Positions 7,025 through 31,201 of a stretch of 64,000 nucleotides of DNA are shown here, in pieces. The DNA is taken from the NCBI GenBank assembly GCA_902793375.1, contig CADBDE010000011.1:1-64000 (forward strand), given 5' to 3'. A program made the translations under genes and the position numbers. The notes below the pieces were generated by a model that had not been told where the DNA came from, searched no databases, and saw only the letters and a program-made list of their open reading frames with translations. Numbering within the stretch: position 1 is the first letter of the stretch; each line of letters opens with the position of its first letter. The DNA comes from an uncultured Erysipelotrichaceae bacterium (GTDB taxonomy: Bacteria > Bacillota_I > Bacilli_A > RF39 > UBA660).

Positions 7025-8083
7025 ATGTCAAATTTAATTACAAGAAACGGAAAACCTAATGTTATTAGAGGAGGTATTGCTAGACAATTTGCTCCAGGTT
7101 TATTTTATATGAATGGTAGAACTCATGCTAAAGGAGGTATTGATATTGGTAAAAATCCTAGAACTGGAGTTGAAGTAGAAAATGGGGAAGTTGTTCAATT
7201 AAATAAAAATGGTATGAGAGTGTTTAGTGCTATGCCATTCCTTACGGGGGAATCCCCTGCTAGTCTTGTTGCTAATGGTGCAGACCCAGATATTGTTTTT
7301 GCTGCACAAGAGAATTTTAAAGATAGATTTGGAATTAATGATGATGGTACAATGAAAGCTGAATATGGTTTAAAAGTAAGTACTAGAGGTGATGATGATA
7401 ATAAATATATGACTTTTAAACGCATGATTAATACTTTAGGTAAATTATATTATGATGCTAAAGTTAAGGCTGCAAACAAAAATAATGTTGATGAAGAAAC
7501 TATTTCTTATTATCCTTCATTAGAAACTGTACAATATATTAAAGGTAAAGAAGCATTTAGACCTAATATTTATCACGATGGTAAAGGTATTCCTACAATA
7601 GGATATGGTACTACTCAAAGTACTAAAGCTGGCAAAAATGCTTTTAAACTTTATGGAAAAACAGGAATGACTGAAGAACAAGCAAGTTCTGTTTTTAATG
7701 AAACTGTTAGAGAAATGCTACCAAATTTTATTTCTGCTACTCCTAATTTTAATAGATTAAATGATAATCAAAGAAATGCTCTTTTTAGTTATTATTATAA
7801 TGTTGGACATGGTGGTTATACTAGAAAGAGTCCTAAATTACAACAAGCATTAAAAGATTTTAATCTTGATGAAGTTGTTAATCAAATGGATTTTGGATAT
7901 TATGATACTAAAAATTCTGGTCTTAGAAAAAGAAGAGATGAAGAAAGAGCTTTGTTTAATATGAAAAGTATGGGCGGACAAACAAATAAAAATATAGCTG
8001 TTCAGATTCCTAAATCTCAAATTAAGATAATTAGAAAAATTAATTCTTCTAAAGCTAATTTTGTTGATATTAAAAAATCCTAA
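7025..8083 (+). CDS. Virion-associated lysozyme (GH24-like) with crAss structural N-domain
   Basis: 352 aa. Residues 1-115 form a domain with RGGIARQFAPG, FYMNGRTHAKGGIDIG and VENGEVV, seen in crAss structural proteins. Residues about 165-305 resemble GH24 (T4-type) muramidase: KGKEAF supplies the catalytic Glu region, YHDGKGIPTIGYGTT is the classical GxxTIGYG motif, and QRNALFSYYYNVG matches the family's 'Q-x-ALxSFxxNxG' block. It probably opens peptidoglycan during infection. Its stop overlaps the next ORF at a run of six A; one missing A would fuse the two frames (see the next gene). One element copy at 7238 reads F-L-T-G-E-S-P. Confidence 0.7.
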   Translation: MSNLITRNGKPNVIRGGIARQFAPGLFYMNGRTHAKGGIDIGKNPRTGVEVENGEVVQLNKNGMRVFSAMPFLTGESPASLVANGADPDIVFAAQENFKDRFGINDDGTMKAEYGLKVSTRGDDDNKYMTFKRMINTLGKLYYDAKVKAANKNNVDEETISYYPSLETVQYIKGKEAFRPNIYHDGKGIPTIGYGTTQSTKAGKNAFKLYGKTGMTEEQASSVFNETVREMLPNFISATPNFNRLNDNQRNALFSYYYNVGHGGYTRKSPKLQQALKDFNLDEVVNQMDFGYYDTKNSGLRKRRDEERALFNMKSMGGQTNKNIAVQIPKSQIKIIRKINSSKANFVDIKKS

Positions 8084-9692: not shown

Positions 9693-9707
9693 TTAAATAA
9701 TAATATT

Positions 9708-12340: not shown

Positions 12341-15300
12341 ATGCCAGATTTATTAACTGTTTTAAATAATGCTCAAAGTGAAGCTCCTGTCAATGCGGCA
12401 GGGGCTTCTCCTACTTATAATCCTTTTGAACAACTTAGAGAGGATTATTCTGAAAACGGATTAAGTAGAATACTTAATCAAGAAACTGGTGTTTCAAATA
12501 CACCTTTAAAAGTGGATAATATAGATAAATATGTCCCTTACGGGGTATATTTTAATGACATAGATACTGAAGCTGACATGAATCGTGTCAGAGCAGAAAA
12601 TCAATCTGTTGGTGAACAATTAGGTAGAATGCTTATTCAAACAGGTGCTGATAGAGTTGGTTTAGGTATACTTAGAGGTTTTAGTGATGTATTAGACCCA
12701 ATATATTCTCTTATTTCTGATGATGAATTACAAGATTATAGTAATCCTGTTAGTGCTAAAATCGAAGAATGGCAAAATGCTATTCGTGATAGATATGAAA
12801 TATATAGAAAAGACCCAAGTAAAGGTATAGATATATCTGATTTTGCTTGGTATATGAATGGACTTACTGATGTAGCTAGTACCGTTGCTTTATATGTTCC
12901 TGCTTGGGGAATTAGTAAAGCTGTAGGTTTAGCTGGAAAAGGTTTAAGTCTTGCTGGAAAAGCATTAAGAACTGCTGAAAGAGTAGGAGATGTTGGTTCA
13001 AAATTAGGTATTAGTGCTACAACTGCTAGAAATCTTAAAGAAGGTACAAAACTTTTAGGTCAAGCAGGTTTAATGAGAATTGGTGAAAATTATCAAGAAG
13101 CTCGTGAAGTATATAATGATATAAAAGATAATACAACACAATTACTTTCTAATATGTCTGCTGAAGAACGTGAAAAACTTTATAGTAGACGACCTGATTT
13201 TATTAATATGTCTGACGACGAAATTGCTACAAAACTTGCTGAAGATGGTGCTACTAATACTTTTATTGAAGATATGTTTCTTATAGGCTTTGATGCTTTA
13301 CAATTAAGAGCAATAGGAAATATGTGGAAAGGATTTACTAATAGAGCCACAAATACTGCTATTAAAGAAGCTCAAGCTAATGCTGTAAGAGGATTAGCTG
13401 GAGAAACTGCTGAAACTGCTACTGAAGAAGGTTTTAGAGGTATTAGTAGAAAATTCTCTAAATATATACCAACATTCAATACTTTAAAAGATTATGTTGG
13501 AGAATGGACTGAAGGTCTTGAAGAAGCATATCAATATGTTGCTCAAACTCATAATACTGCTGTAGCAAAAAGTATTATAAATAATAAAGAACACATTCCT
13601 ACTTTTAGTGATTATCTTACTGATAGTCAAATGTGGAATAGTGCTATTTGGGGTTTTATTGGTGGTGCTATGTTTCAAGGAATTATGACTGCTGGTCAAT
13701 CCGCAGTTGATAAAATAATGAAACGAGAAGATGCTGGAACTAAAGCTAGGATTGAAGAAATTAATGGTAGACAAGCTATTCTAAATAATTTACTTCAAGA
13801 TTTATCTGATGCTTATGAAAAACGAACTCCTAGATTAGATAACGAAGGCAATATTGTAAAGGATTCTAGAGGAGATACTATTTATGATGATTTAAGTGAT
13901 GAAGAAGCTGCTCTTAGAGTTGAAGAAATTAAAAATAAATATATTCTTGATTTAGTTTATAATGCAGCTAATAAAGGCAACTATGATTTATTAAAAGATA
14001 TGTTTAGTAGCAGACAAGCTAAGAAATATATTGATGATAATTTAAATAATCAAGAAAATTCAGAAGATTTTATTGCAGATGTTACTTCTAGAATGGATAG
14101 AGTATATAATACTTATCTTGAAGAACTAGAAAAAGCAGATTCTGCTGGCATAAAAAATCCTGGTACTGTTGAAAAAGTTGCTTATAGTAATGTTGTTAAA
14201 AGGAGTATGCTAAATGATTTAATTGATAGGGGTACAGCAATAAATGGACAAATTGATTCCCTTTACGGGGGATTAATAAATGGTGATACTTCTTCCCTTT
14301 CTCCTCTTGAACAAGGTATTCTTGCAGAAGCTGTTTCTGAATATAATGCTAAAGCTAGTCATAATATGCTTTCTAGTTATATTCAACAAATGGATACTAG
14401 AAAACAACAAAACGAACAATTACATAAAGCAGGTTTAATCGGTGATTTGGCTTTTGAAAGAGAACAAAAAAATATAGATGATACTGTTAACAAAGTTGCA
14501 GCACAATACGGAATAGTAAAAGATGGTAAAGTTTTAACAGATATAAATGAAATAAGAGAATTTATATCTAATCCTGATAATATTTTATTAAGTGGTACAA
14601 TAGATACTATAGAGCAATATAGTAAAGATTTATTAGCAAATTTAAATAATAGCCAAGTAAATAAATTACAACAAAATATTCTTAAGAGTCAAGTAATTAA
14701 TAAGAAAGAAGATTATCTTAAATCTGCTGAATATCACGAAAGACTTTATGAAGCTGCTAGAGAAGCGACATATCAGAGTGCTAAAAAAGCATTAGAAGAT
14801 ATTTATAATACTGCTGATAATATAGATGATGTTACAAATTATATTAAAACTAGAAATAGAGGAGGTTTAAGTGAACAAACAGCTAATGATATAACAACAG
14901 CTTATACAACAATGGCTAACTTTGTTAGCAGAGAACAAGACGAAGATGTTGAAAGAGATATAGATAATATTATAAAAGATGCTAAAGCAAAAAGAAATGC
15001 TCCAAGAGTTACTACTCCTCAAGGTGCTGTAACAACTCCAAAGCTAGATCTTAATGATAATGCTCAAGCTGCTACAAATCCTGGAACAAATACTACTCAA
15101 AGTAGTGTTGAAAATAATAATCCTGCTCCTGTAGTAGAACAAAATCCAGCTGTTGCAATTCCACAAACACCAACACCAGAAGAACAACTTGTTGCAGGTT
15201 CCCCCGTAGGGAATACATTAAATGATGACGAATCTCCTGCTCCTGACTTTGTAGAAAATAATAGTTTTGCTCAATTTGCAGAACAAGAACGACAAGAAGT

Positions 15301-18300
15301 TCGTAAAGAATTAGATATTCAGAAAAATGTTGCTAAAAGATTAAAAACTTATAAAGCAGAATTAAAAACTAGTAGTGCTTCTGAAATATATAATAAAATA
15401 CGACCAGAATTAGTAAATGATTTTGGTAAAGATTTTGTTGATGAAAATGAAAGAACTATTAATAGTTTTATTGAGAGCGCAAAAGCTTTACTTAATCTTG
15501 GTATAGAACCTGGTGTGTTTAGGTCAGCTGTAGATTTTGGAGAAATTTTATTTAATCCTACAAACGATAATGTTTTAGCATTATTAGATGAATATGCAGC
15601 TACAAGAAAAATAAATACTTTTAATGATAAAATTCCTATAAGTCTTCGTTCATTAATTAGATATATTTATAATAAAAATAAAACTATAGATCCTACTGTT
15701 GCATATCAATTATATGAAAATATTAGAAATGGTTTAGCTGCTAGTAGAGGAAAATTTAATATACGAGAAAATTTAAAAAATAAATATACACTTGAAGATA
15801 TTAAGACAATAATGTCTGAAAGTACAGAAGATCCTATTAAAATTGATTCTAGAATAAATTTAAATGCAGCAAACGAACCGTCTGCAAATTATGCTTTAGC
15901 TAAATTAAATGATGGTAGTCCTGTTACAGTTAGAAGAAATAAATATGGTAATGGTGTAGAATTTTTTGCTAGTGGTGCTAAAATAGGTTATAATATATTT
16001 AGAAAAACAAATGATGGTGTGGGATATAGTTACAAATCTCAAGATAAGATTGCAGGACAATCTTATTTTTCTTATAATTTATATAAAAATAACGGAGAAT
16101 ATAGTTCTACATTATTAGATGTTTTTGATATAATTATAAATAATAAGCCTGGCACATATAAAATAAATGGTCAAACTATAAATATAACAGAAAACGATAT
16201 TAATGAATTTAGAAGTGTTTTAGAGCTTAAAGGAAAACACATAACTGATGATATTTATGAAACATTAAAGAAAAATAAAGTTGTTGAATATATTTTCACA
16301 GCTAATATGATACCTGATGTATCTAAAAATGTTATAGTTGGTAATAATGGTAAAATAGGCTTATTTGAAAGATTATCTAATATTTTACAATATCCTATAG
16401 ATAATATTAGATTTGCTGATATTGACGATCCTTCTGTATTATTTGATAGTATTAAAGATTGGATTGCTAGAGAATATGAAAATTATGCTTATACTGAACA
16501 ATTATTTAATAAATTACAAATTAATCCTATAGTTCAAATACCTGTAAAAAGTCTTAATAGAGGTAAACCTCAATATAGTACTAATTTTGATACTCAATTA
16601 GTAGATGCTATTCCTCAAAGACTTCACAATTCAGTACAAGTTGTAAGACTAATTAACGGAGATAAAGTTTCAGAAGATGGAAAACTTATTAGACAACATA
16701 TCTCAGATAATGGAACTTCTTTACCTCATTATTTCCAAATAGCTTTACCTAATGGTACAAAATATCCAGAATTTGTTGATATATCGCAAGCAGAATGGAC
16801 TAATGAAGGATATGGTAAAGCTATTGCTGATGAATTATACAATTTGTTTATAAAACATTTAAATAGTGAAGATGAAAATTCTTATGATGATTTATATAAA
16901 CATTTAAAATCAATATTAGATATAGATGGTTTAATAATTGATAGTAAAATATATGAAGATAACGGAACTAAAGAAAATAATTATTCTAAGAAAATTATTA
17001 TAGGTTCTCCTACTGACGAAAAAGCTAAAATAGTAATATATAAATATAATAAAGATAATAGTGTTGCTCATAATATATCTGTTAAAATAGATAATGCAGA
17101 TAGTTATAATATATTATTAAAAGACAGTGAAGGAGTTAATAATATAATTAGAAATGCTATAACTCATATATTAACAGGTGCTAGATATAGTTTTCCTGCA
17201 GCTATTCTTGATTCTGGTATAAACGAAAATGTTAATGAATATATTAAAAAAACTGATACAGGATATGATTTAAAGATTGGAAGTATGTCAGAACATTATC
17301 CTACTTTTGCTAGTTTTATGATTGCAAATAAAACTGCCACAACCAATCTTAGAAAAATAACACATAAAAGAGGAAATCAAAGCGAAATAGAAGATAATTA
17401 TGATTATTTTGATAATAATGGATTTGTACCTAATAATAGAGCCGCTGCAAGATTAACTCTTGAACCTAATGTTAATGAATATGAAGCTATTACTGAAGAA
17501 GAACTTAAACGCCGTGAAAATACTGAAACAAATAGAATAGATGAAATAAATAAAATTATTAATGAAGGTAACAAAGAGGCTTATGAAATTCAAACTTTTG
17601 TAAATACTGTTTCTCCTAATTTTGCTAAAGCTGTATTTGATAAAGAATATTATGGTGTTTCCTTACGGGGAATCTTACCTTCTGAAATTGATATTAAGCC
17701 TAATGAATTATATAATAATGAACAAAATACTTCTGGTTTATATAATCCTACTATTGGAAGAATAACTTTATTTAAGCCTTACTTTGATAAAATAACATCT
17801 AATAATGGTGCTTATCAAGCAATGAGAATATTGCTTCACGAAAGTATTCATAAACAGATTAAAGATAATTCTATTCCTATAAATACAGCTACGATGAATA
17901 GTCGTATTGGAGAAGTTTGGAACGCTTTACAGAAAGCAATTAATGATGTGAATAGTTCTGAATATAAAGATTTAAAAAATGCTTACGGTGATAATGTTCA
18001 AGCTGTAATTAATAATTTAAGAGATAATTTACAAACTATTATTGATAATACTGGAGGCAATATTGCAAGTAGAAACGAAGAACTTATTGTTGAAGCTATA
18101 ACATCTAAAAATTTTAGTGATGTTTTAAATAATATAAATACTCCAAATGAAAAAGTTGGAGAGCCAAAAACTTTATTGCAAAAAATTTTGCAATTTATAA
18201 GAAATTTATTTAACTTTGGCAGAAACGGCAACAATAAGATAAAAGATGATACTCTTCTTGCTAAAGTATTTAATAGTTTTACTGAAGAAGTAAGTGCTAT

Positions 18301-18520
18301 TGACCAAAACCCCGTAATGGATGATACAATAATTGAAGATTATAATGATGATGGCTATGATGATGGCTATGATGATAATGCTGCTTTACTTAGTAGTGTT
18401 GATTTTGATAATATAGAAATTCCAAATAAAAACGCTTTAGCCAGTATCTTATCCGTTTCCGAAAATGCCTCTATGACCGAAATGCTTGAGCGTGGTGAGC
18501 TTCAAATGCGTTGCGTATAG
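12341..18520 (+). CDS. Giant virion protein with a zincin-type protease motif
   Basis: 2059 aa. Near the N-terminus (about 155-215) is the DFAWYMNGLTDVAS / YVPAWGISKAVGLAG block typical of crAss cargo proteins, with an amphipathic membrane-active stretch. A long helical middle follows, then a Pro/Asn-rich linker (about 885-960). HESIH at residues 1833-1837 fits the HExxH zinc-metalloprotease motif, and NEELIVEA (about 1912-1919) could give the third ligand. The C-terminus has a D-G-Y-D-D repeat followed by S-S-V-D-F-D-N (about 2018-2024), which recurs inside the downstream 4200-aa protein. Five dispersed elements lie within. It is probably ejected with the RNA polymerase; protease activity is a hypothesis. 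Confidence 0.6.
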   Translation: MPDLLTVLNNAQSEAPVNAAGASPTYNPFEQLREDYSENGLSRILNQETGVSNTPLKVDNIDKYVPYGVYFNDIDTEADMNRVRAENQSVGEQLGRMLIQTGADRVGLGILRGFSDVLDPIYSLISDDELQDYSNPVSAKIEEWQNAIRDRYEIYRKDPSKGIDISDFAWYMNGLTDVASTVALYVPAWGISKAVGLAGKGLSLAGKALRTAERVGDVGSKLGISATTARNLKEGTKLLGQAGLMRIGENYQEAREVYNDIKDNTTQLLSNMSAEEREKLYSRRPDFINMSDDEIATKLAEDGATNTFIEDMFLIGFDALQLRAIGNMWKGFTNRATNTAIKEAQANAVRGLAGETAETATEEGFRGISRKFSKYIPTFNTLKDYVGEWTEGLEEAYQYVAQTHNTAVAKSIINNKEHIPTFSDYLTDSQMWNSAIWGFIGGAMFQGIMTAGQSAVDKIMKREDAGTKARIEEINGRQAILNNLLQDLSDAYEKRTPRLDNEGNIVKDSRGDTIYDDLSDEEAALRVEEIKNKYILDLVYNAANKGNYDLLKDMFSSRQAKKYIDDNLNNQENSEDFIADVTSRMDRVYNTYLEELEKADSAGIKNPGTVEKVAYSNVVKRSMLNDLIDRGTAINGQIDSLYGGLINGDTSSLSPLEQGILAEAVSEYNAKASHNMLSSYIQQMDTRKQQNEQLHKAGLIGDLAFEREQKNIDDTVNKVAAQYGIVKDGKVLTDINEIREFISNPDNILLSGTIDTIEQYSKDLLANLNNSQVNKLQQNILKSQVINKKEDYLKSAEYHERLYEAAREATYQSAKKALEDIYNTADNIDDVTNYIKTRNRGGLSEQTANDITTAYTTMANFVSREQDEDVERDIDNIIKDAKAKRNAPRVTTPQGAVTTPKLDLNDNAQAATNPGTNTTQSSVENNNPAPVVEQNPAVAIPQTPTPEEQLVAGSPVGNTLNDDESPAPDFVENNSFAQFAEQERQEVRKELDIQKNVAKRLKTYKAELKTSSASEIYNKIRPELVNDFGKDFVDENERTINSFIESAKALLNLGIEPGVFRSAVDFGEILFNPTNDNVLALLDEYAATRKINTFNDKIPISLRSLIRYIYNKNKTIDPTVAYQLYENIRNGLAASRGKFNIRENLKNKYTLEDIKTIMSESTEDPIKIDSRINLNAANEPSANYALAKLNDGSPVTVRRNKYGNGVEFFASGAKIGYNIFRKTNDGVGYSYKSQDKIAGQSYFSYNLYKNNGEYSSTLLDVFDIIINNKPGTYKINGQTINITENDINEFRSVLELKGKHITDDIYETLKKNKVVEYIFTANMIPDVSKNVIVGNNGKIGLFERLSNILQYPIDNIRFADIDDPSVLFDSIKDWIAREYENYAYTEQLFNKLQINPIVQIPVKSLNRGKPQYSTNFDTQLVDAIPQRLHNSVQVVRLINGDKVSEDGKLIRQHISDNGTSLPHYFQIALPNGTKYPEFVDISQAEWTNEGYGKAIADELYNLFIKHLNSEDENSYDDLYKHLKSILDIDGLIIDSKIYEDNGTKENNYSKKIIIGSPTDEKAKIVIYKYNKDNSVAHNISVKIDNADSYNILLKDSEGVNNIIRNAITHILTGARYSFPAAILDSGINENVNEYIKKTDTGYDLKIGSMSEHYPTFASFMIANKTATTNLRKITHKRGNQSEIEDNYDYFDNNGFVPNNRAAARLTLEPNVNEYEAITEEELKRRENTETNRIDEINKIINEGNKEAYEIQTFVNTVSPNFAKAVFDKEYYGVSLRGILPSEIDIKPNELYNNEQNTSGLYNPTIGRITLFKPYFDKITSNNGAYQAMRILLHESIHKQIKDNSIPINTATMNSRIGEVWNALQKAINDVNSSEYKDLKNAYGDNVQAVINNLRDNLQTIIDNTGGNIASRNEELIVEAITSKNFSDVLNNINTPNEKVGEPKTLLQKILQFIRNLFNFGRNGNNKIKDDTLLAKVFNSFTEEVSAIDQNPVMDDTIIEDYNDDGYDDGYDDNAALLSSVDFDNIEIPNKNALASILSVSENASMTEMLERGELQMRCV

Positions 18521-18546
18521 GGTAGTTCAATTTATATATTTAAATC

Positions 18547-18590
18547 GCTTGTAGGGCTTTAAAATGAGTCCTACAAGCAAAACTTTTTAG
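18547..18590 (+). terminator. Hairpin between the two giant cargo genes
   Basis: GCTTGTAGGGCT (18547-18558) pairs with AGTCCTACAAGC (18567-18578) in a 12-bp stem with one G-U pair and an 8-nt loop, followed by AAAACTTTTT. It lies 9 nt before the 4200-aa gene, in one of the few gaps of this operon. It could be a leaky terminator, an RNase processing site or an mRNA-stabilising hairpin. The 5' arm sequence recurs at 6979 and, inverted, at about 36806. Confidence 0.6.
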
Positions 18591-18598
18591 AACAACTT

Positions 18599-21500
18599 AT
18601 GAAAGATTGTAGTATTAAACCTTATCAAGAAACAAAGGCTTGGGATGTTATTAAAGAGCTGGAACATAATGACGGTACAAGTGCTATAAAATTACTAAGT
18701 GCTGTTGTTTCAAAAGATTTTGTAGATTTTGTTAAAAAAGATGGTAGAGTTAATCTTGAAGTAGATAAAGTTAACTATGATTCTATAACAAATGCTTTTG
18801 AAGATGTTAATAAAAATACTGTAAAAAGTATTATTAGAAATTATAGAAAACAGAAATTTTTTGACCCAAAATATACTTCTACAATATCTGCATCTAGTGG
18901 TTTGTATACATTTGGTAGTAGAGAAGTTTTTGAAGATGCTAAGACTTTACTTTCAAATGTATTATTTAATATTTATTATAATGCTGACGAAAGAATTAGA
19001 AAAACTGAAGATTTTAGAAATGGAGCAATAAGAAAAGCTGTTAATCAGATAAATAGTAAAATAATAGATATTTATGCTGATATGACAAATGTTCCAAAAG
19101 ATAATAAAACTAGAATAGCTTTTAAACAAAAAAACTTTTATAAACAAGTACCTACTTCAAAGGGTGTTCCTACTAGAACATTTGATTTTGATAGGTTTGC
19201 TTCAGTTGTTAATTATGTTTACGAAAAAGGAAACGATATACAAAAGAATTATGCTGATTTAGCATTAACATTGAATAGTTATAATATTGGTGATGATTCA
19301 ATTAAAAGTTATTCTTCTAGATTTATGTCAGAAGTTTTAGCAAATAAAAAGATTTCTCAATTATTTGCTGTAGCTGATGAATTTGATATAGAAGATGTTG
19401 TTACTAGTACTATTTATGTTGATGAAGATCATATGGAAGACGGAATGTATGCTGATGAAACTGATGCTAGTACAAATCAGTGGCTTATGGATAGTATTAA
19501 ATCTTCTAGTGATAAATTTGCTTCTCAATTTACTAAATTATATTTTGAAAGTTTAATTAAACTTGCAAGTGTAGATAATAATTATCAAGATTATTATAGA
19601 AATAATTCTTTTGGTGCTGTTGAATTTCATAATTATTCTGATTGTAATAATCAATTATTAACAATAATGACAGAAAGAGGTGGTTTTAAATCTCTTGATG
19701 ATTTTATTGCAGCTTTAGATGAATATGGAGAAACAGTTCCTGAATATAGAGCATTTGCAAAAGTAGCAGATGATTTTTCTAAAGATAGAAATCTTGGTTA
19801 TAAAATATTTACAGATTTAAGAAATAAAGTTATAGATAAAGTAAGACTATCAATAATAGAAGATAATAATCCTATAGATGTTCATCAAGCTAATCCTACT
19901 AATAATAACGAAAATGCAAATACTTTTAAATTTACAAAAGATATTCAAAGCAGTATTTTCAAAGTAGAACATTATACTGTTTTACAAGGACTTAAAGAAA
20001 TTAAAAGTGCTTTAGAAAATAATGAAAAATTAACTAAAGGCAATATATCTGACCAAAGAAAAGCTATAACTGTAGAATATATTAAAACTGTATTTAAACA
20101 ATATTTTCCAAATATAGATACAAATATTATAGATTCTTATATAAAAAATAAAGATGTTATATACGATGCAGTAAATCAAAAGAATGTTGCTCCAGAAATT
20201 AAAAATATAAAGTCTTTATTAGAATATATCGAATCTATTGCACAAAGTGCTTTAAAAGATTTTAACGATTATAATATAAATGAACATCGAAGACAACAAG
20301 CTTTTGCAAATAATAGAGCTGTTCAACAAGGATTAGTAAATAGACCTTTAGAACAAATACCTGATAGAAAACTTATAAGTGATCCTCTTAATGCTAAAAT
20401 AGGAAAATTAGCTAGAGAATTATCCAAATATAGTACAACAAAAGCTGAATACACTTCAAAAAATATTGAAGGTAAACAACAATCTGATGCTACTTATAAT
20501 AATTTTATAAGTTTTGTAACAGGAGCATTTGAATCTGTAGAAAGTATAGATGCTTATGTTAGAAGTAAATTTAGAGGTAGTAATTTAAGATATAGTAATC
20601 TTGTCGGTAATCATAAATTATCGCCTTTTACTATAACTAAAGATTCTAACGATGTATATAATGTTTCTGCTAAGAAAACTAAATTGGATGGTAAAGAAAT
20701 CCCTCTTGCTGCTAGAATTATAAGAATGAAATTAATTGATGGTGTTGAAAATATAACTAGTGATGTTACTGCTGGCTATACTTCAATGTCTGATATTGAT
20801 TACATGGGTTTAGGACTAGCATCTTACATTAAAGGTATTAGAGATTATTCTGCATATTCCTCTTACGGGGAAACTTTAGATGGTGTAAAAACATATATTA
20901 TGCCTACACCTTCTGATGCACCTAAGAATTTTATGATTACTTTACCTAGTTATTCTGCTGGTAGTGAGCAAACAAACGCTGTTGCTAATATTATAAAAGC
21001 ACAAATATTTGAGGCTCTTAAATCTAGAATTAGAATTGGTAGAGCTAATTCAACTGCCGATTTAATAGATAATTATGACTATAAAAAGAATTGGAAAGTT
21101 AATAATTGGAAAGAACTAGACGGCAATATATTTAAGTTTGATAGATTATTTAATTTTGATAATTCTATTGACACAAAAGCTAGAATAGTTGAAATAATTG
21201 ATAAACATATAGGAAATTTAATGGATGATGTTGAGGCGTTGGCTTCAGCTATGAAATATGATGAAAATAATCATTATAGTGCAGAACTTCCTGTAAATAC
21301 TCAGGAGTTTATTAATGATATAAACAAATTAGCTAGAGAATGGATAAAAGTTGCTAAAGAACATGCTATGAGTATAAAAGAAAATTATACTCCTGTATTT
21401 GATGTTCTTAAAATTAATGATAATGATTATCAAGATTATTATGTTAATTTTTATATTGCACAAACCACTATTGATGATTTATTTAGAGGAGCGAAAGAAT

Positions 21501-24500
21501 TTTATAAAGATGCTCAAACTATTGCTAAACGAGATAAACAAATTCAAGCTGGCGGTAAAATGTATGGTGTTGTTGATTTAAATTCAATACAATCATATAT
21601 ACAAGAAGTTAGCAATACAGATGAAACACTATCTGTTAGTGGTACAAGAACTGAAAGAGGTGTTAATACTCCATTTAATTATACTGTAAAAGATTTAAAT
21701 GGAAATCCAGTTAAACTTCGTACAGGTTTTAATGCTATTACTATTAGGAATTCTGTTCGTTTTTCTAGTAATGCTGAAGGTATTTATAAACAACTTATAG
21801 ATGCTGGTAATAGTAAAGAAATTGCAGAAAAATTAGCTAAGCCTTTTGGTTATAATAACGACAATAATAAAGATAAAACAAAAACTAATGATGCTCAATC
21901 ATATATAACTATATGGGAAGCTGCAAGAAGAATTAAAGCTAGAGGAGATTTTAGCGATTATGCAGAACTTCTTGATAAACTTACTGATAAAACTACTCCA
22001 CTTGAAGAAATTGATAATGAACAACTTACTCAATTTATTCAAGTAATGAAACATTTTTATTATGACCAATATTATGATGAACGATATGATATGGAAGTTC
22101 CAAGACAAATTAAAAATGCAGAATTTGTCTTAATTCCTAAAATGTTAGGTCATTATGAAACAAATGCTAACGGTGAAGAAGTTTATATTGCAGATACATC
22201 TTTAGGAGAATTATTAAAATTAATGGCTGATAATGATATTGACCAAGTTAATACTCAAGAAACTAGTAAAGCATCAAATTATGATATTGTAGAATTTTGG
22301 GATGCAGATGGTAATTTGCCTAAAGATAGAGTTAATTCTCTAAATAAATATATTGCTGAAAGAAAAAAAGCTGGTTATAGTATTGTAAAACCTTTTAGTT
22401 ATTCACATTTATATATTCAGCAAGATGTTCCTCAGCATATGGAAGATGCTAAGAATAAAGCTGGTATTCAGATTATTAAGAAAATTCTTGATAATATTGA
22501 TGCTGCTTTTGTTAATTCAGGATTTACCGCTGAACAATTAAAAACACCAGAAGTACAAGCAGTTATAGAACTTAATAAAAAAGCTGTTCAAGCTAAACAA
22601 ACATTTATTGAAAACTATATTGCTAATATTCGTGAAGATTTTGAAAATCTTATGAAGCAATATGGTGTTAAATTTGACGCTGATGGTAATATTGAAGGTA
22701 GTCTTACAGGAGGTGTAAATTTTGAAAAAGTTTATGCTGCTGCTAGACAAGAATTAAATAGATTAGGTCAAGACAGTAATATGCTTGATTATGTAACTGA
22801 GATTAATGGTGAAACAATCATGCCTACATTTATGAATATTGTAGGTGCTAAAATTGAAAGTATTGCTAATGCTCAGTTCAATAGACTTATTACTAGACAG
22901 AAACTTCCTGGATGGCATGCTGCACAGGTTACTTCTGTTGGTATGGAAGGACTTGTTCAAAGGTTTAAAAAAGAAGATATAACTAAAGCTAGTGATGCTG
23001 AGAAAAAACTTGGTAAACGAGTAGAATTAGCTTATCATAAAGATAAAAATGTTGTAGAAATTCTTTTACCTGCTTGGACAAAAGATATTCTTGGTACTGA
23101 TATTGAAAATATTGATGAAGATGTTCTTGAAATGATTGGTTATCGTATTCCTACTGAAGGTAAACAATCTATAGCTGTTATGAAAGTTGTAGGATTTTTG
23201 CCAAAAAGTATGGGTTCAACAATAGTTGTTCCAGATGAATGGGTAACTCAAACAGGTTCAGACTTTGATGTTGATAGTGTATATGGTATTATCAAAGAAA
23301 CTTATAAAGATGAAGATGGTAAAGTTCATGTAGTTGATGAAAATCATGGAACTGCTAGGCAATTAAGAAATACAAGAATTGTTCAATCTATGATTGATAT
23401 TCTTAATAGTCCTATGGCTACTGCTGAAAATCTTTCTCGTTCTAATTTTGATGATATAACAGACGCTAATAAAGAAGTAGATAAATTAAAGAAAACTATA
23501 AAAAATAATGTTTCTCCTTATGCTTTAGAAACTCAAATAGCTTTTAGAAGAAATGCTATGGGTGGTGCTTCTCTTAAAGGTTTATCTGTCATGCTTGATA
23601 CAGCTTGTTCTGTATTTAGTGTATCTAAAGCATACTTTCCTAATTTAGGAATTAATATTGTTTATGAAGATGGTTTTCAAGAAAGACTTTATAGATTAGG
23701 CTGGTCTGAAAATAATAATTTAAATAGATATGGAGATATTATTACAGTAGCTAGTTCACACACTACTGCTCATATTCTTGATGCTGTCAAAGAAGGTAGT
23801 ATTGAAAATGAAAATGAATATACTTTTCAAGCATTTAAATTATTATTTAATTTAGGTGTTGATGCTAAAACTGCAATATTGTGGATTAGACAACCTGGAA
23901 TTAGTCAAATTGTTAAAACATATTTCGATAATAATTCTGTATTTGTTGATAGTAATGCTAATCCTATACAAGGTGCAATTAAATCTATTGCTGCTGAATT
24001 AGGCATAACTATTAATAAAAAACCTGTTACTCAATATACTCCTATTGATACAGTTGTAGATTTATTACAAGCAAAATATGGTACTCAATTTGAAGAATTA
24101 TTTAGAGATTATGGAGCTGGTAGTAAAATAAGTCTTAAAACTAATACATCAGAACAAGGTGTTTTAAAAATTAATGCACCTATGATGATTGATAGACTTA
24201 AAGAAGAAGGAAAATTTACTGATAAAACTAATAGATTGCTGTTTGATTTAGGTATGGTTATTAATTTCAATAATATTAATAAACAAGCAGCAATAATGAT
24301 GAATTATGCTAAAATTTTAAATACAGATAAATTTGGTGCTGCACAATCTATATATAGTACTAGAGAATATTTAAATAATATTAGTGAACTTATTTCTAAT
24401 GGTCAAGCAGAAGAAATATATTCTTCAGAAACTAACACTAACTTAGTTGAAGCTATATATCAAGGTTTTGAAAAAAGTTTAGATAGTGGTAAGATAGATA

Positions 24501-27500
24501 TTAATGCTTATTTTAAAAATAATAAAGCATCTGTTTATCCTATATTAAACGCATTTCTTAAATATTCTACTATGGCTTCTCTTGCAGTTAATTCACAACT
24601 CTTTTTAACTGAAGTTCCTAATACTTGGGGAGGCAGTGGTTTTTATGAAGCTGTGAATAATTTGAGAGATGTTATTATGAGATTTAATGAAACAACTTAT
24701 AATGAATTTAAAAAATTTGCTATAAGTTATTTTGCTAATACTGATATTGATTTCTTTAGTCATCAAATAAAACTTAACGATAAAAATAATATAGAAATAG
24801 ATAATATTGTGGACAACCCCGTAAAGGATATGTATAATGAATTTACACGCATATTTGGTTATGGAAGAGTTAACAATGAATTATTTGATATAGCGGATAT
24901 AAATAATGTTACTGAAGAAGAACTTAATAAATATAAACAATTAAGTCCTGCTGAAAAAGTTGAATTTATTAAACGACATTTAACTAATTCTACTAGAAAC
25001 ATATTTGATTATCTTGAGCCAAGACTTATTAATTATAGAACTTTAAGAGATACTGGAGATACTCCTCAAACTATTAGATTTACTGATAATTATATTGATA
25101 GAGAAGAACTATATAGACTATTTAAAGAAAGTTTTTATAATTCTAATCCTTTAATTAGACTTGCTGCTATAGATTTAATTAAATATGCTTTTGTTGCTGA
25201 AGGAAATAATTTCAGATATGGTAATGTATCAAAGATTATACCTAATGTAGTTTTATATGATGGTATAAATAAAGGTGCTACTGGAATAATAGATCCTTTA
25301 CGGGGAATCCCAACACAAGATACTATTATAACTAGATTTGTTGATAGCAATCTTTATGAAAAGTTTATTCAGAGTCATTCTAATAGCTTAGGATTAAAAA
25401 CTATTAAAGCTATTGTTGGTCCTAAAGGTAAACAAAGAGTAAATCTTAAAAGATATGTACCTAAAGGTTTTGATTATTTAAAGAGAAGTATTATATATAA
25501 ATATGATTTAAATAATTCTGATAATGTTAGACATCTTTCTGATTTAGGAATAGTTACAACTTATAAAGATGAAACTAGAGTTGCTCAAAATTATATAAAT
25601 GTATCATTTAATAATACTAAAACTCTATATAAAGTAATTAAAACAGATAGTAATCTTTTATATATTGTTCCTTTAAATAATTTACATTTAAATGAAGTTA
25701 CTGATTTTAGTACAGATAGTAGTTTAAATATACATCCTATTAGTAGATATTGGGAAAAGTTTATAGAAGTAGATGAAAGTACTACAGATGATGTTATGGA
25801 TTTGGAATCTGTAAAAGATTCTTTACCAGAAGTAAAAGAAAATACTACTATTTCTGAAATTTCTCCTAATTATATTGAAACTAAAATAGGAAATAAACCT
25901 GTAAATACAGGAAATATAGCTTTATTTGTTGATAACATTAATGCTAGATTAGGCAATGAACCTAATAAACAAACTGCTATTTTTTATAGTACAAATTATG
26001 AATTAAGAGAACAAACAAAAGATTCTAAAACAGGAAAACCTTCAACTAAAGGTATTCTTCAAGAAATATCTAATGGAGAAGATATAGTAAGATATATTGT
26101 TATTAGAAAAAAATTAAAGCCGAATGATATTAATAGTGATAGTGAATTAGCAAATTTTGTTAATACCTATAAATTAGAAAATTCTGATAATTTTTATCAA
26201 TTAATAAAATATAATCCAAAAGAAGTAGAACATATTGATGATGAATCTGCTGATTTAAGGTCTGCTGTTGATTTTGATAATCTCGATTTGGATATTACTA
26301 CAAAACTTGCTAAACAACAAGTAAATGATATTAAAAGAAGAAGTACTAATGATGAACAAGCTAATATAATTTTCAATAGAATTCAAAGTATAGGTATTGA
26401 CCCAGAATCTATTGAAAGTATAGAGCTTAATTCAGGTGAGATTATCAAACAATCTATTCGTTATTATAGTGCTAAAGCTAGAGAACTTGATAGAAAACTT
26501 AAGAATTTTGCTAGAACAGGTCTTGCTGTAAACGATCCTAGACTTATTGAACAACTTAAAGAAAATTCCGCTCTTCGTAAAAGTTATCTTGAATTGTATC
26601 TTGATGCTGTTACTTTTGGTAAATCATTTAATCTTATAAACGATATTCCTCTTGATAATTTTACTGAAGATTCTCAACGAGATATAAGACAGATTCGAGA
26701 AGCAATAAATGATGTGAAAAATAATATTTTACTTAAAGAAATGAGTGATATTATTTTGAAAAATATTTATGAACCTTTAAGTACAAATATTAATATTACA
26801 GAAGAAATTGCTAGTCTTAAAGACTATATATTTAAAGACGGAAATTTACCAGATAGACTATTTCAAGACGCACAAGAATTAGGTATTCCTCTTGTACAAA
26901 TTATTTTAAAACAAGCATGGAATAGAGTTGCAGCTGAAAAGATGAAAAATGAAAAAGAAGTAGTTGATACAATGAGAGAAATAAATAAACTCATTGATGA
27001 TGCTGCTAAAAATGGTACTCCTGTTAATTGGGATAAAATTATTAGTACCACTACTGGTAGATTCTTAGTAGATTTTGATGAAAAATGGTTTGAAGATTAT
27101 AAAAAATTAACTGAAAAAGTTAGTGATTTAAGATTTGATAAAGGTATTTATGATAAAGAATATCTTAAAGCTAAACAAGAACTTAATGTTTGGCTAAATG
27201 AAAACAGCCATCAAAAATATGTTTCTGATTATTATAAACGAATTAATGATAATGTAGCACCAATGCTTGAAGATGATGCTATAGATGTATATATAGAATA
27301 TCTTAAATTAAAAGATAGAAAAAATGAACTACTCAAAATGAGTAGAACAGAACGAAGTGTTGATGAACAAATAGAATTAGATAATATTAATAAACAAATA
27401 TATCAATTAATGAATTATATAGATGAATTTGGCGATGTTAAACCGAATTCTATCGGTAATCAAAAATTGACTAATTTTGTTAATAATTATAATTCTATAA

Positions 27501-30500
27501 AAGCTGAATATTTTACTCAAGAAACTCGTGAAGGTTTTGAGGATGATTTAAGATATTATCTTGATATTATTAGAAGAAAAGAAATTCGTAATGCTGCTGG
27601 ACAATTAGTTTCATCTGAAGCAGACTTAATGCTTGATAGAGAATATGCTGATGCTAAACGATGGCTAGCTGAAAATACTAGAAGAGTTATTGACCCTGAC
27701 TTTAGAAAAAAGATTAGTGAAGCATTTGCTACATTAAGACAACAAAAAGGAGGAAATGGCAAAGTAATTGCTGCTGATGATATATTTAAAAAATATTCAA
27801 AGAATGAAAAATATTATGATTATAAAGGAACTATTAACGGTTCTTTATTTACTGATGCTGAAGTAGAAGAAATTAGAAATGCTCAAATACAACAATTTGC
27901 TAATTTTGCAAACGATAGAAATACTGGTGAAGCTAGACTTATACGAAATAGAAGTGGTATAGATATTATATTTAATGATAAATTTTATTCTGGATTAAGA
28001 CCTGATTCTTTGAGTAAAGAAACAGTAGATTCTATTAGAAGTACAGTAGACGATATTAATAAAATTTTAATTAATGCTCGTCATAGTGATGGTAGAATTT
28101 ATTTAAGCGATTTATCTATTGAACAACTTAAAGAATTAGATAGACTATATAAAATATATCATTCCTTACGGGGTTTCTATAAAACATCTACTGATAAGAA
28201 AGTTGGTAAATTCTTTGCAGAAAATGTAGAAGTTAAAACAGATAATACGCCATTTGATTATGATAAAGTAAGAATAGAAAACGGTAGCTATAGTAAAGAA
28301 TATTATGATGCTTGGAAAGCTGTAGCTTATGGTCATGAATATGATGAAGATGGACAACCTGTAGGAAATAAATTAAATGATACTCCTAATGAAGATATTT
28401 ATGGATTTCTTGTACCAAAAGAATTAGTAGAAGATGAAAATGGTAATTTCTTAGGTAAAGGTTCTCAATTTGTTGATAAAGAGAAAACTGCTGCTAAAAG
28501 ATTTATTAATAGTGCTATTGAATTTACTCCTACAGAATATTATTATAAAGCTCGTCAAGAAGCATCTGATGCTGGAAAACTTGCTGAATTTGAAGCTAAA
28601 AATTTGGTTTATAATCCTTATAGTGATAGATTTGAGCCTATTCGTATTTGGACTCAATTAAATCTTAAACCAAGTTATGCTTATGCTGAAACTTTTGGAC
28701 CTAATTATAATAATACTGTATCTACTCCTTATCAAGATACAATAAATGAAGATTATCATAGATATAGTTATAAATATAATGGCTCTGAAAAATATAAAAA
28801 AGATTATAAGAGAACATCTTATGAAGAAGCTATTAGTAAATTAATGATTGACAAATATTATAAATTTGCTCAATATAATCCAACAGGATATAATTTTACT
28901 AGCAATCTTATGTTCCCCCGTAAGGGAGTTGCAGATGGTTCTATGATTAATCGAGTTAAACAACTTTTAAATACTTTTGGCTTTGGTTATACTATTGCTG
29001 ATGATAGATTTGAAACTAACAGTATTGGCTTTGAATATGATAGGTTAAATAACTTACCTATGATGGAATATCTAAAAGGTAAGGGTACAATGGAATATAA
29101 AGAACAACCAAAGAGAAAAGATTATATAGATGAACGTGATTATCAAAATAAAGTAAAAGAAGTTAGAGAATATAATAGAATCGCTAAGGCAAATAATGAT
29201 AAAATAGATGTAGCTTTAATGAGTCATGATTACAAAGCTATTTTTGAAGAATTTCTCAAAAAAGCTATTCAAGTTAATGCTGTAGAAGATACAAAACTTG
29301 ATATATATTATTTGCTTGAATGGTTACGCCACAATGAAGCAGCACAAGTTAGTGGTTTTGGAAACCTTCTTAGAGATAAATTTAATTCTGCAAAAGATTT
29401 AAATGTACCTGCTACTAAACCTGCTACTGTTGCAATAGAAATGGTAGAAAGATGGGCTAGAAGATTTTTATTTGATGAATTTAAAAGAAAAAATAGATTT
29501 GATGCTTTAGCTGGTTTTGCTCAAAACTTTACTTCTACTAAATATATGATGCTGAATATACCTGGAGGTATTGGTAATGTTTCAACTGGTACTTATAATA
29601 TAATGCAAGAAAGAACAGCAGGAGAATTTTTTGGACATAGTGAATGGGAAAACGCTAAATTTAAATATTATGTTCAAAATATCCCAGCATTTATAAGAAA
29701 TAGAACTAGAGGAGAAAGTGATAATCTTATGGATGCTGTTATAAAGATGATGAATATTATTGATTATAATGATATTACTGAAATAAGTCGCGAAGGAAAT
29801 TATACAGAACTTATGAAAAAACTTCGTGATAGTGCGTATAGTACTCAAAGTGCTGGTGAACATTTTTTGCAAAATACTGCTATGATAGCTATGATGCTAA
29901 GTAATAGGATTTATACTGATTCTAATGGAAAAACTGTTATAGGAAGTATTCATGATTATACTCGTGATGTGCATTTCAGAGCTATGGAACAGATTTTAGC
30001 AGATAATGAAAATTTGGCTAAACTTTATAAGAATTTTAAAAATGGAATTCTTAGAGATGAAAATAAAAGAAAAGATGTTCTATGGTTTAAAACTGACATT
30101 AATGGAGAATTTTTAAGAATGATTGGTAAAGATAAATCAATGCAAAAGTATGCAGAAATTTATCAAAATAAAATAAAAGAACTTACTAATAATCTTAAAA
30201 AAGATTTTGAAACTAAACCTAGAGTAATTGACCAATTTGAATTAGATATACCAGATAAAGGTATTGCTCAAATAAAGAAAGATAGTCCATTAACTTGGGA
30301 ATTACTTGGAGAATTTAAAGGTAAAGTTGTTTCTGTTAATAAAAAGATTAATGGTATATATGATAAACTTGGAGCAGGCGGTATAGAGAGTATGTGGGTA
30401 TTTGGTAGTTTGGCTATGCAATATCATAAGCATATTTATATGAATATTATGAAACGCTATAGAACTACTGGATATTGGAATGAAAGTCGTCAAGCTGTAG

Positions 30501-31201
30501 AACGAGGATATATTACTGATTTGTGGAATTTTGCTACTGCTGAATTTAAAGATTTTAAAAAGAACGCTATAGCTAGAAATGGTAATGATGAAGATAATCA
30601 ATTACATTTTGTTGAGGCTGTTCAAGAATTATGTAGAGCAACTATTGATACTATACTCAATGCTAAATTTAGATATAATACCATGAATCCTCATCAAAGA
30701 GCTAATATTAGAAGAGCTGTTGGAACATTATACTATATGCTTGGTGGTTTAGCTTTAGGTTTTGGTGCTAGTTTTGCATTACTTGCTATGGGTGGAGATG
30801 ATGACGATGATGATGCAATGACTTTACTTGCTAATCTTGCTCTTTATGAAGCTGATGATATATTAACTCAAACTCAGGCATTTGCTGGAGGTTTAATTTC
30901 TTCTACTGATAAACTTTGGAGTAATCCTGTAGCTGTACTTTCTTCTGTTGAAGAATTAGGTAAACTTGCAGGTTTTGCAGCAAAGATGGTAACTCAAGGA
31001 GAAGAGTTTAATATGTATTATACTAATGGTCGATATAAAGGTGAAAATAAATTTAAAGTTTTGTTATTAAAACAAGTTCCTATTTATTCTCGTCTTGATA
31101 GATTATTTGATTTGAATAGAAATAATAGTTATTATAAACTTGGTGATAATCTTATGAATTTCATTCCTGTTAAAGATATTACAGAATGGATTATGGAATA
31201 A
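18599..31201 (+). CDS. Giant virion protein containing the crAss YonO-like RNA polymerase
   Basis: 4200 aa. Residues about 1490-1565 carry the catalytic double-psi barrel: YRIPTEGKQSIAVMKVVGF, FLPKSMGSTIVVPDEW, then D1555-F-D-V-D1559, the DxDxD magnesium-binding signature of YonO-like single-chain polymerases. In phage phi14:2 a protein with this signature (gp66) is the injected early RNA polymerase. Around residue 2550 is R-S-A-V-D-F-D-N, matching the C-terminus of the preceding protein. The C-terminal 1600 aa are helical, with a membrane segment near 4043-4065 followed by a G-G-D6 acid patch. In relatives this content is spread over several genes, so this looks like a fusion or polyprotein. 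It ends the structural operon. Confidence 0.85.
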   Translation: MKDCSIKPYQETKAWDVIKELEHNDGTSAIKLLSAVVSKDFVDFVKKDGRVNLEVDKVNYDSITNAFEDVNKNTVKSIIRNYRKQKFFDPKYTSTISASSGLYTFGSREVFEDAKTLLSNVLFNIYYNADERIRKTEDFRNGAIRKAVNQINSKIIDIYADMTNVPKDNKTRIAFKQKNFYKQVPTSKGVPTRTFDFDRFASVVNYVYEKGNDIQKNYADLALTLNSYNIGDDSIKSYSSRFMSEVLANKKISQLFAVADEFDIEDVVTSTIYVDEDHMEDGMYADETDASTNQWLMDSIKSSSDKFASQFTKLYFESLIKLASVDNNYQDYYRNNSFGAVEFHNYSDCNNQLLTIMTERGGFKSLDDFIAALDEYGETVPEYRAFAKVADDFSKDRNLGYKIFTDLRNKVIDKVRLSIIEDNNPIDVHQANPTNNNENANTFKFTKDIQSSIFKVEHYTVLQGLKEIKSALENNEKLTKGNISDQRKAITVEYIKTVFKQYFPNIDTNIIDSYIKNKDVIYDAVNQKNVAPEIKNIKSLLEYIESIAQSALKDFNDYNINEHRRQQAFANNRAVQQGLVNRPLEQIPDRKLISDPLNAKIGKLARELSKYSTTKAEYTSKNIEGKQQSDATYNNFISFVTGAFESVESIDAYVRSKFRGSNLRYSNLVGNHKLSPFTITKDSNDVYNVSAKKTKLDGKEIPLAARIIRMKLIDGVENITSDVTAGYTSMSDIDYMGLGLASYIKGIRDYSAYSSYGETLDGVKTYIMPTPSDAPKNFMITLPSYSAGSEQTNAVANIIKAQIFEALKSRIRIGRANSTADLIDNYDYKKNWKVNNWKELDGNIFKFDRLFNFDNSIDTKARIVEIIDKHIGNLMDDVEALASAMKYDENNHYSAELPVNTQEFINDINKLAREWIKVAKEHAMSIKENYTPVFDVLKINDNDYQDYYVNFYIAQTTIDDLFRGAKEFYKDAQTIAKRDKQIQAGGKMYGVVDLNSIQSYIQEVSNTDETLSVSGTRTERGVNTPFNYTVKDLNGNPVKLRTGFNAITIRNSVRFSSNAEGIYKQLIDAGNSKEIAEKLAKPFGYNNDNNKDKTKTNDAQSYITIWEAARRIKARGDFSDYAELLDKLTDKTTPLEEIDNEQLTQFIQVMKHFYYDQYYDERYDMEVPRQIKNAEFVLIPKMLGHYETNANGEEVYIADTSLGELLKLMADNDIDQVNTQETSKASNYDIVEFWDADGNLPKDRVNSLNKYIAERKKAGYSIVKPFSYSHLYIQQDVPQHMEDAKNKAGIQIIKKILDNIDAAFVNSGFTAEQLKTPEVQAVIELNKKAVQAKQTFIENYIANIREDFENLMKQYGVKFDADGNIEGSLTGGVNFEKVYAAARQELNRLGQDSNMLDYVTEINGETIMPTFMNIVGAKIESIANAQFNRLITRQKLPGWHAAQVTSVGMEGLVQRFKKEDITKASDAEKKLGKRVELAYHKDKNVVEILLPAWTKDILGTDIENIDEDVLEMIGYRIPTEGKQSIAVMKVVGFLPKSMGSTIVVPDEWVTQTGSDFDVDSVYGIIKETYKDEDGKVHVVDENHGTARQLRNTRIVQSMIDILNSPMATAENLSRSNFDDITDANKEVDKLKKTIKNNVSPYALETQIAFRRNAMGGASLKGLSVMLDTACSVFSVSKAYFPNLGINIVYEDGFQERLYRLGWSENNNLNRYGDIITVASSHTTAHILDAVKEGSIENENEYTFQAFKLLFNLGVDAKTAILWIRQPGISQIVKTYFDNNSVFVDSNANPIQGAIKSIAAELGITINKKPVTQYTPIDTVVDLLQAKYGTQFEELFRDYGAGSKISLKTNTSEQGVLKINAPMMIDRLKEEGKFTDKTNRLLFDLGMVINFNNINKQAAIMMNYAKILNTDKFGAAQSIYSTREYLNNISELISNGQAEEIYSSETNTNLVEAIYQGFEKSLDSGKIDINAYFKNNKASVYPILNAFLKYSTMASLAVNSQLFLTEVPNTWGGSGFYEAVNNLRDVIMRFNETTYNEFKKFAISYFANTDIDFFSHQIKLNDKNNIEIDNIVDNPVKDMYNEFTRIFGYGRVNNELFDIADINNVTEEELNKYKQLSPAEKVEFIKRHLTNSTRNIFDYLEPRLINYRTLRDTGDTPQTIRFTDNYIDREELYRLFKESFYNSNPLIRLAAIDLIKYAFVAEGNNFRYGNVSKIIPNVVLYDGINKGATGIIDPLRGIPTQDTIITRFVDSNLYEKFIQSHSNSLGLKTIKAIVGPKGKQRVNLKRYVPKGFDYLKRSIIYKYDLNNSDNVRHLSDLGIVTTYKDETRVAQNYINVSFNNTKTLYKVIKTDSNLLYIVPLNNLHLNEVTDFSTDSSLNIHPISRYWEKFIEVDESTTDDVMDLESVKDSLPEVKENTTISEISPNYIETKIGNKPVNTGNIALFVDNINARLGNEPNKQTAIFYSTNYELREQTKDSKTGKPSTKGILQEISNGEDIVRYIVIRKKLKPNDINSDSELANFVNTYKLENSDNFYQLIKYNPKEVEHIDDESADLRSAVDFDNLDLDITTKLAKQQVNDIKRRSTNDEQANIIFNRIQSIGIDPESIESIELNSGEIIKQSIRYYSAKARELDRKLKNFARTGLAVNDPRLIEQLKENSALRKSYLELYLDAVTFGKSFNLINDIPLDNFTEDSQRDIRQIREAINDVKNNILLKEMSDIILKNIYEPLSTNINITEEIASLKDYIFKDGNLPDRLFQDAQELGIPLVQIILKQAWNRVAAEKMKNEKEVVDTMREINKLIDDAAKNGTPVNWDKIISTTTGRFLVDFDEKWFEDYKKLTEKVSDLRFDKGIYDKEYLKAKQELNVWLNENSHQKYVSDYYKRINDNVAPMLEDDAIDVYIEYLKLKDRKNELLKMSRTERSVDEQIELDNINKQIYQLMNYIDEFGDVKPNSIGNQKLTNFVNNYNSIKAEYFTQETREGFEDDLRYYLDIIRRKEIRNAAGQLVSSEADLMLDREYADAKRWLAENTRRVIDPDFRKKISEAFATLRQQKGGNGKVIAADDIFKKYSKNEKYYDYKGTINGSLFTDAEVEEIRNAQIQQFANFANDRNTGEARLIRNRSGIDIIFNDKFYSGLRPDSLSKETVDSIRSTVDDINKILINARHSDGRIYLSDLSIEQLKELDRLYKIYHSLRGFYKTSTDKKVGKFFAENVEVKTDNTPFDYDKVRIENGSYSKEYYDAWKAVAYGHEYDEDGQPVGNKLNDTPNEDIYGFLVPKELVEDENGNFLGKGSQFVDKEKTAAKRFINSAIEFTPTEYYYKARQEASDAGKLAEFEAKNLVYNPYSDRFEPIRIWTQLNLKPSYAYAETFGPNYNNTVSTPYQDTINEDYHRYSYKYNGSEKYKKDYKRTSYEEAISKLMIDKYYKFAQYNPTGYNFTSNLMFPRKGVADGSMINRVKQLLNTFGFGYTIADDRFETNSIGFEYDRLNNLPMMEYLKGKGTMEYKEQPKRKDYIDERDYQNKVKEVREYNRIAKANNDKIDVALMSHDYKAIFEEFLKKAIQVNAVEDTKLDIYYLLEWLRHNEAAQVSGFGNLLRDKFNSAKDLNVPATKPATVAIEMVERWARRFLFDEFKRKNRFDALAGFAQNFTSTKYMMLNIPGGIGNVSTGTYNIMQERTAGEFFGHSEWENAKFKYYVQNIPAFIRNRTRGESDNLMDAVIKMMNIIDYNDITEISREGNYTELMKKLRDSAYSTQSAGEHFLQNTAMIAMMLSNRIYTDSNGKTVIGSIHDYTRDVHFRAMEQILADNENLAKLYKNFKNGILRDENKRKDVLWFKTDINGEFLRMIGKDKSMQKYAEIYQNKIKELTNNLKKDFETKPRVIDQFELDIPDKGIAQIKKDSPLTWELLGEFKGKVVSVNKKINGIYDKLGAGGIESMWVFGSLAMQYHKHIYMNIMKRYRTTGYWNESRQAVERGYITDLWNFATAEFKDFKKNAIARNGNDEDNQLHFVEAVQELCRATIDTILNAKFRYNTMNPHQRANIRRAVGTLYYMLGGLALGFGASFALLAMGGDDDDDDAMTLLANLALYEADDILTQTQAFAGGLISSTDKLWSNPVAVLSSVEELGKLAGFAAKMVTQGEEFNMYYTNGRYKGENKFKVLLLKQVPIYSRLDRLFDLNRNNSYYKLGDNLMNFIPVKDITEWIME

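Follow-up and report, generated by a model that had tools for sequence, protein, structure and literature searches.

Introduction

The closest described systems to the locus analysed here are found in crAss-like phages. In crAss001, gp47, gp49 and gp50 were identified as virion cargo by mass spectrometry, and this cargo must partly unfold to pass constrictions of less than 50 Å (PMC10172136). The crAss001 virion contains inter-subunit disulfides in tail and portal-vertex proteins, and structural work treats the way in which crassviruses eject proteins as an open question (PMC10172136). The window studied here (the whole stretch of 64,000 nucleotides that was analysed) encodes two giant proteins, z and R, the latter a fusion of an RNA polymerase, R1, and a second subunit, R2. 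They are homologous to p-crAssphage gp44/gp45 and crAss001 gp47/gp49/gp50, which are arranged in the same gene order. In p-crAssphage gp45 a zincin had already been annotated, as is found in z of the window, whereas crAss001 differs from the window in carrying z, R1 and R2 as three separate genes.

Zincin-like peptidases have been proposed to process polyvalent proteins, which are described, in the passages devoted to them, as large proteins of several domains that enter the host at infection and contain an HExxH protease, proposed to autoprocess them, and in this they are like z (Iyer et al., 2017, PMC5512222). Those passages give no recognition sequence and do not deal with crAss phages, whereas here candidate sites were found, one of them outside the protease-bearing protein. 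The virion RNAP of phage N4 is, like R, giant and injected, and it contains an MPTase domain; unlike R, it is a T7-like single-subunit enzyme. According to the same passages it is packaged uncut (PMC5512222). A further likeness is offered by the prohead proteases of T4, phiKZ and SPN3US, which cut packaged head proteins at a short motif and remove targeting propeptides (PMC10052503), but these belong to another protease class than the z zincin and act mostly on N-terminal propeptides, with no part in the separation of RNAP subunits that is proposed here. Our search of the open literature turned up nothing about zincins of crAss phages, cut sites, covarying sites or terminal cysteines, an earlier mention being possible, and the crAss002 paper contains no mention of mass spectrometry or proteomics terms. 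The present analysis places testable candidate cut sites, at residue level, in the giant polymerase proteins of gut phages that are very abundant. It also outlines the probable mature form of the polymerase and of its partner, and offers a way in which proteins of this size could pass through a phage tail in order.

Results and Discussion

The Phage Locus and Its Two Giant Proteins

The window contig (C11; assembly total 1.59 Mb) carries a Crassvirales phage. Its gene order (ring and stabilization proteins of the tail, followed by cargo proteins, by z and R, and then by replication genes on the opposite strand) agrees with the Crassvirales type when compared with BK010471 and MT774381; a CrAss_Ring_1 match in the window was below the cut-off. 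The virion-cargo protein z (2059 aa; positions 12341–18520, + strand) was assigned from its ORF, tblastn and the BK010471 annotation, and is the homologue of crAss001 gp47 and of p-crAssphage gp45, labelled in BK010471 as "RNAP associated protein fused to zincin protease"; its residues 26–887 show 25–32% identity to crAss-like phages in tblastn. R (4200 aa; 18599–31201, + strand) was assigned by tblastn and by the BK010471 annotation of its homologue p-crAssphage gp44, "RNAP catalytic subunit fused to unknown RNAP subunit". It comprises the virion RNA polymerase R1 (approximately residues 1–2555) and the second RNAP subunit R2 (approximately 2556–4200), and shares 30–34% identity with Intestiviridae across 78–93% of the query (tblastn). 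The RNAP active-site motif GSDFDVD, of DxDxD type, is located at R 1553–1559 (23255–23275, + strand). By RNAP-core homology and this motif, z and R fit Crassvirales virion RNAP proteins, with identity to named Crassvirales of just ~25–34%. Neither protein gave a significant match against Pfam, PHROGs, NCBIfam or PDB sequences. The C-terminal 116 aa of z, used alone as query against viral contigs, retrieved no relatives, and therefore the RNAP core was taken as query instead.

A Repeated Peptide in Predicted Linkers

The original prediction drew attention to a peptide, SxVDFDN, repeated in z and R, and exactly two matches to it were found over all six frames of the window. They constitute two candidate cut sites on the + strand: SSVDFDN (z 2018–2024; 18392–18412), in a predicted disordered linker, and SAVDFDN (R 2555–2561; 26261–26281), in a low-pLDDT linker at the R1/R2 joint, both of them proposed also from the covariation described below. 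A weaker third copy noticed in the middle of z (SAVDF at nt 15524) is part of a third candidate site, RSAVDFGE (z 1061–1068; 15521–15544, + strand), proposed from its homologous position in relatives and a permutation test. The acidic stretches mentioned together with the repeat were also present (DDGYDDGYDD and HIDDESAD). In the window alone, the bare repeat was not significant, because its top 10-residue pair (SSVDFDNIEI/SAVDFDNLDL) scored 39, a score of at least 39 was reached somewhere in both whole proteins in 13/60 trials with shuffled z, and the real z and R hold another pair scoring 44. When only the z end and the R joint were compared, 9/20,000 shuffles reached 39, these regions having been picked after the repeat was seen.

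An AlphaFold model of z 1620–2059 showed a confident helical HExxH core, then a low stretch and then a small helix-strand tail. The low stretch (pLDDT <50 at local residues 341–406, z 1960–2025) contains the C-terminal site and, before it, an acidic linker predicted to be disordered (z 1960–2017; 18218–18391, + strand; pLDDT <50). The site is followed by a C-terminal tail (z 2025–2059; 18413–18517, + strand) that is conserved in the alignments and, in the model, includes a helix; it has a G-x-I-x-F-x-C end. In a model of R 2376–2795, the site (local residues 180–186) falls inside a low-confidence segment (local 165–187, R 2540–2562; pLDDT <50), preceded by a moderate-confidence alpha/beta domain and followed by a confident helical bundle. 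The models thus support a position of both sites at domain edges, in low-confidence linkers; since the mean pLDDT was just ~59, this placement counts as support, short of proof. In Steigviridae R1 and R2 are separate genes (crAss001 gp50|gp49), and because this gene boundary aligns to approximately R 2512, at most ~45 residues from the R site, the earlier placement of the polymerase boundary near residue 2550 is sound. The R copy of the peptide lies at an R1/R2 boundary. The z copy is not itself the protein end, a conserved tail of ~35 residues following it.

Covariation of the Peptides Among Relatives

Covariation was analysed in 30 genomes on segments of fixed length, so that no peptide was chosen by eye: the C-terminal 90 aa of z were set against the 140 aa that precede R2, using as score the best ungapped 10-mer and comparing the within-genome mean with that of permuted partners. 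The z C-terminal and R-joint peptides gave a within-genome mean of 27.0 versus 23.3 (sd 0.62) for permuted partners and none of 20,000 permutations reached it, these counts ignoring relatedness, and permutation among relatives making the test conservative. The result was reproduced with 29 genomes, and four control stretches of R showed no covariation signal. In Intestiviridae-type genomes both peptides vary from phage to phage yet agree inside each phage, as in the z end/R middle pairs of p-crAssphage (FSSVDDD/YSSVDDQ), cr271 (HSSITE/HSSVTE), cr11 (FSAVSED/YSAISEE), ctbg_1 (RLSTAPLIE/RYSIAPLID) and crAss002 (DSAISDN/ESALVDN). Some genomes (cr8_1, cr3_1 and L043) were without clear sites.

The third place, located ~640–930 aa upstream of HExxH, was also compared with the other two, and 36 and 1 of 20,000 permutations reached the observed values. 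At the homologous position, crAss002 has LESAISDND, ctbg_1 RYSTAPLIEP and p-crAssphage LYSSVQDN, and three-site sets can be read in ctbg_1 (RYSTAPLIEP/RLSTAPLIEP/RYSIAPLIDE), crAss002 (ESAISDND/DSAISDNY/ESALVDND) and L039 (QSVIEES/ESVIEES/ESTIEEV). Among four z-internal control comparisons, two were flat and two mildly positive (HExxH-450; 66 and 160 of 5000), and for this reason the mid-z site is the weakest of the three; part of its signal may reflect within-genome sequence bias. With the caveat of these controls, several sites sharing one recognition sequence that covaries across relatives were found, as in viral-type polyproteins, and such covariation, seen at three homologous positions, is consistent with protease sites that evolve together.

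No covariation was detected in other lineages between the R1 C-terminus and the z-R1 linker (594/5000), nor between the z and R1 C-termini of split phages without HExxH (939/5000), and site evidence is therefore confined to the lineage with fused R1-R2. The expectation that relatives would show the peptide at gene ends was thus only loosely borne out: split relatives have no statistically matched peptide, and crAss001 provides suggestive end peptides in FSSLTQDI of gp50 and YSSLSDSM of gp47.

The Zincin Domain of z

The HESIH zinc-protease motif attributed to z was located at z 1833–1837 (17837–17851, + strand), and HExxH was found in 38/38 Intestiviridae-like/cr127 z proteins examined. In an alignment of the C-terminal region of 17 z proteins (A4), just five residues were invariant: both His and the Glu of HExxH, a second Glu farther downstream, and the terminal Cys. 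That Glu (column E295 of A4; z 1914, in EELIVEA; 18080–18082, + strand) is the candidate third zinc ligand, and z thus has the sequence pattern of zincin-like MPTases, in which HExxH is complemented by a Glu ligand farther downstream, on a second helix. The model of the protease resembles LF-type and ArdC metallopeptidases weakly: the match to the LF protease domain has Z 5.8 and an rmsd of 6.1 Å, and Z is 5.4 for a phage M1 ejectosome protein and 4.5 for ArdC. It is this class of peptidase to which Iyer et al. assigned a proposed role in the processing of polyvalent proteins (PMC5512222), and the features of z agree with that proposal.

Distribution of HExxH among IMG/VR loci was 22/22 where R1 and R2 are fused, 13/27 where z and R1 are fused, 0/4 where all three are fused and 2/26 where all are split; it was also present in 4/7 named Steigviridae-type phages. 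Zincin presence does not track fusion in general, and the counts for z-R1 fused and fully fused phages led us to reject the idea that every fused joint requires a zincin. Cleavage would not be universal either, given the four fully fused z-R1-R2 phages without HExxH.

Two peculiarities were observed in z proteins of relatives. In that of L044 HExxH occurs twice, at distances of 853 and 184 residues from the protein end, and in Obtuvirinae an ART-PolyVal ADP-ribosyltransferase domain (PF18760) is located between the zincin and the C-terminal site (z 2561–2698 in cr271_1, L007; z 2359–2481 in ctcc615, L005).

Proposed Processing of z and R

We consider it probable that z and R are virion-cargo polyproteins cut by the z zincin at three flexible joints bearing a phage-specific recognition peptide. 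One cut, at ~z 1062, would part the N-terminal half of z from its protease half; a second, at ~z 2018, would detach the conserved C-terminal tail from the protease domain; and the third, at ~R 2555, would separate the RNA polymerase R1 from its partner subunit R2. The expected products are z-N (~1060 aa), z-protease (~955 aa), the tail (~40 aa), R1 (~2555 aa) and R2 (~1645 aa). Comparison among relatives gives good support to processing by the fused zincin, in which R would be split near residue 2555. The sites, their covariation, their placement at domain edges and the conserved active site come directly from the computation, and from them we infer that the joints are cut, that the zincin is responsible, and that it acts either in the virion or post-injection. 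The original prediction had already linked an upstream zincin and the repeated peptide to polyprotein processing; covariation, the invariant active site and the R1/R2 boundary now argue for it, with cleavage and its enzyme as the deduced part.

Any common reader of the peptides would produce equal covariation. They could accordingly be docking motifs, with the zincin or another cargo protein binding the three linkers and so keeping z, R1 and R2 together without cutting, and in N4 the MPTase region of the virion RNAP is needed for encapsidation, yet the protein is uncut, as stated in the relevant passages of Iyer et al. (PMC5512222). We regard docking as rather unlikely, because both main sites fall where linkers connect large domains and the active site of the protease does not vary. 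A smaller likelihood, distinctly low, is given to cutting of these sites by another enzyme, such as a head maturation or host protease, the zincin acting elsewhere. Giant phages do use a prohead protease on packaged head proteins (PMC10052503), but here the peptides covary with the genome, the zincin is part of the same polypeptide and is never missing from the lineage with fused R1-R2, and a Pfam scan of ten other window ORFs detected no second protease. A chance repeat in low-complexity acidic linkers, with no functional link, would suit the window pair alone, which is within the whole-protein shuffles (13/60), but it is already disfavoured and highly improbable, as composition-keeping permutations across genomes never reach the observed value.

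Terminal Cysteines and Gene Layout

The only cysteine of z is, by sequence count, Cys2058, next to last of its 2059 residues (18512–18514, + strand). R has four cysteines in all, one of them at position 4 (18608–18610, + strand; alignments), facing the C-terminal Cys of z. Cysteine makes up ~0.2% of these cargo proteins. A Cys is present within the last 4 residues of z in 38/38 genomes and within the first 8 residues of R in 36/37, the exception being crAss002. In the latter, MSC offers gp33 (L011 15243) an in-frame start that lies 32 codons after the annotated one; it is the start used in the sister phage cr107 and fits the N-terminal cysteine rule.

Three layouts were found: z | R1-R2 in Intestiviridae, z-R1 | R2 in Suoliviridae and z | R1 | R2 in Steigviridae. 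Terminal cysteines were counted in 128 dereplicated IMG/VR loci. The classes were delimited by how long the ORF is around the match to the RNAP, and the Fisher values ignore phylogeny. R1 carries a C-terminal Cys in 74/77 cases when R2 is separate versus 0/30 when R2 is fused, and an N-terminal Cys in 77/81 when z is separate versus 4/26 when z is fused. R2 has an N-terminal Cys in 72/74 and a C-terminal one in 1/69. Both partners have it at 53/54 z|R1 joints and 72/73 R1|R2 joints, versus 4/656 and 65/3986 in internal controls. Split gene ends thus carry a terminal Cys, and fused joints and free chain ends are without it. In crAss001, gp47 has one cysteine, C-terminal at residue 2339, gp49 one, N-terminal at residue 5, and gp50 three, two of them terminal at residues 5 and 2404. 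Four long N-terminal fusions start with Cys, and their upstream neighbour is Cys-ended in 2/4 (L064 and L114).

Some further observations concern the same genes. The four ORFs upstream of z (window 6516–12338; 132, 352, 543 and 876 aa) contain 0, 0, 0 and 1 cysteines, and most other window ORFs 0.5–3.3% Cys; these likely cargo proteins are cysteine-depleted. In L109, L113, L116 and L132, z-R1-R2 is apparently one ORF of ~5500–5640 aa, without HExxH or terminal cysteines.

We tentatively propose, as a reading with somewhat less than an even chance, that the z-R1-R2 cargo is one linear chain in every lineage, Cys-Cys end-joined where genes are split and cut at its linkers. A Cys pair occurs where the peptide bond is absent, and we read it most simply as a substitute for that bond. 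The C-terminal Cys of the upstream protein would join the N-terminal Cys of the downstream one, most simply by a disulfide; the leading z would pull R1 and R2 through the tail, and once in the host cell the disulfide joints would come apart on reduction. At the covarying sites the zincin would cut the peptide joints and also the tail beside the Cys: a cut at the R joint would leave R1 and R2 separate, and one at the C-terminal site of z would release z from its Cys-bearing tail. Alternatives to a disulfide are that the Cys pairs form a shared metal site or act in thiol-based docking. Native chemical ligation was considered and judged unlikely, because other residues precede the N-terminal Cys, the first position not being Cys.

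RNAP Genes of Other Relatives

In seven relatives (L060, L070 and L162–L166) the R1 ORF breaks at or right beside GSDFDxDK, and gaps of ~240–950 nt follow before the next large ORF. This suggests intervening sequences in catalytic codons; Rfam analysis of L060, L070, L163, L164 and L165 revealed no known intron. The z-R1 gene of cr4_1 (L050 13524–26999) contains 38 in-frame stops under table 11, and its RNAP core translates with TAG=Q, which is consistent with stop recoding.
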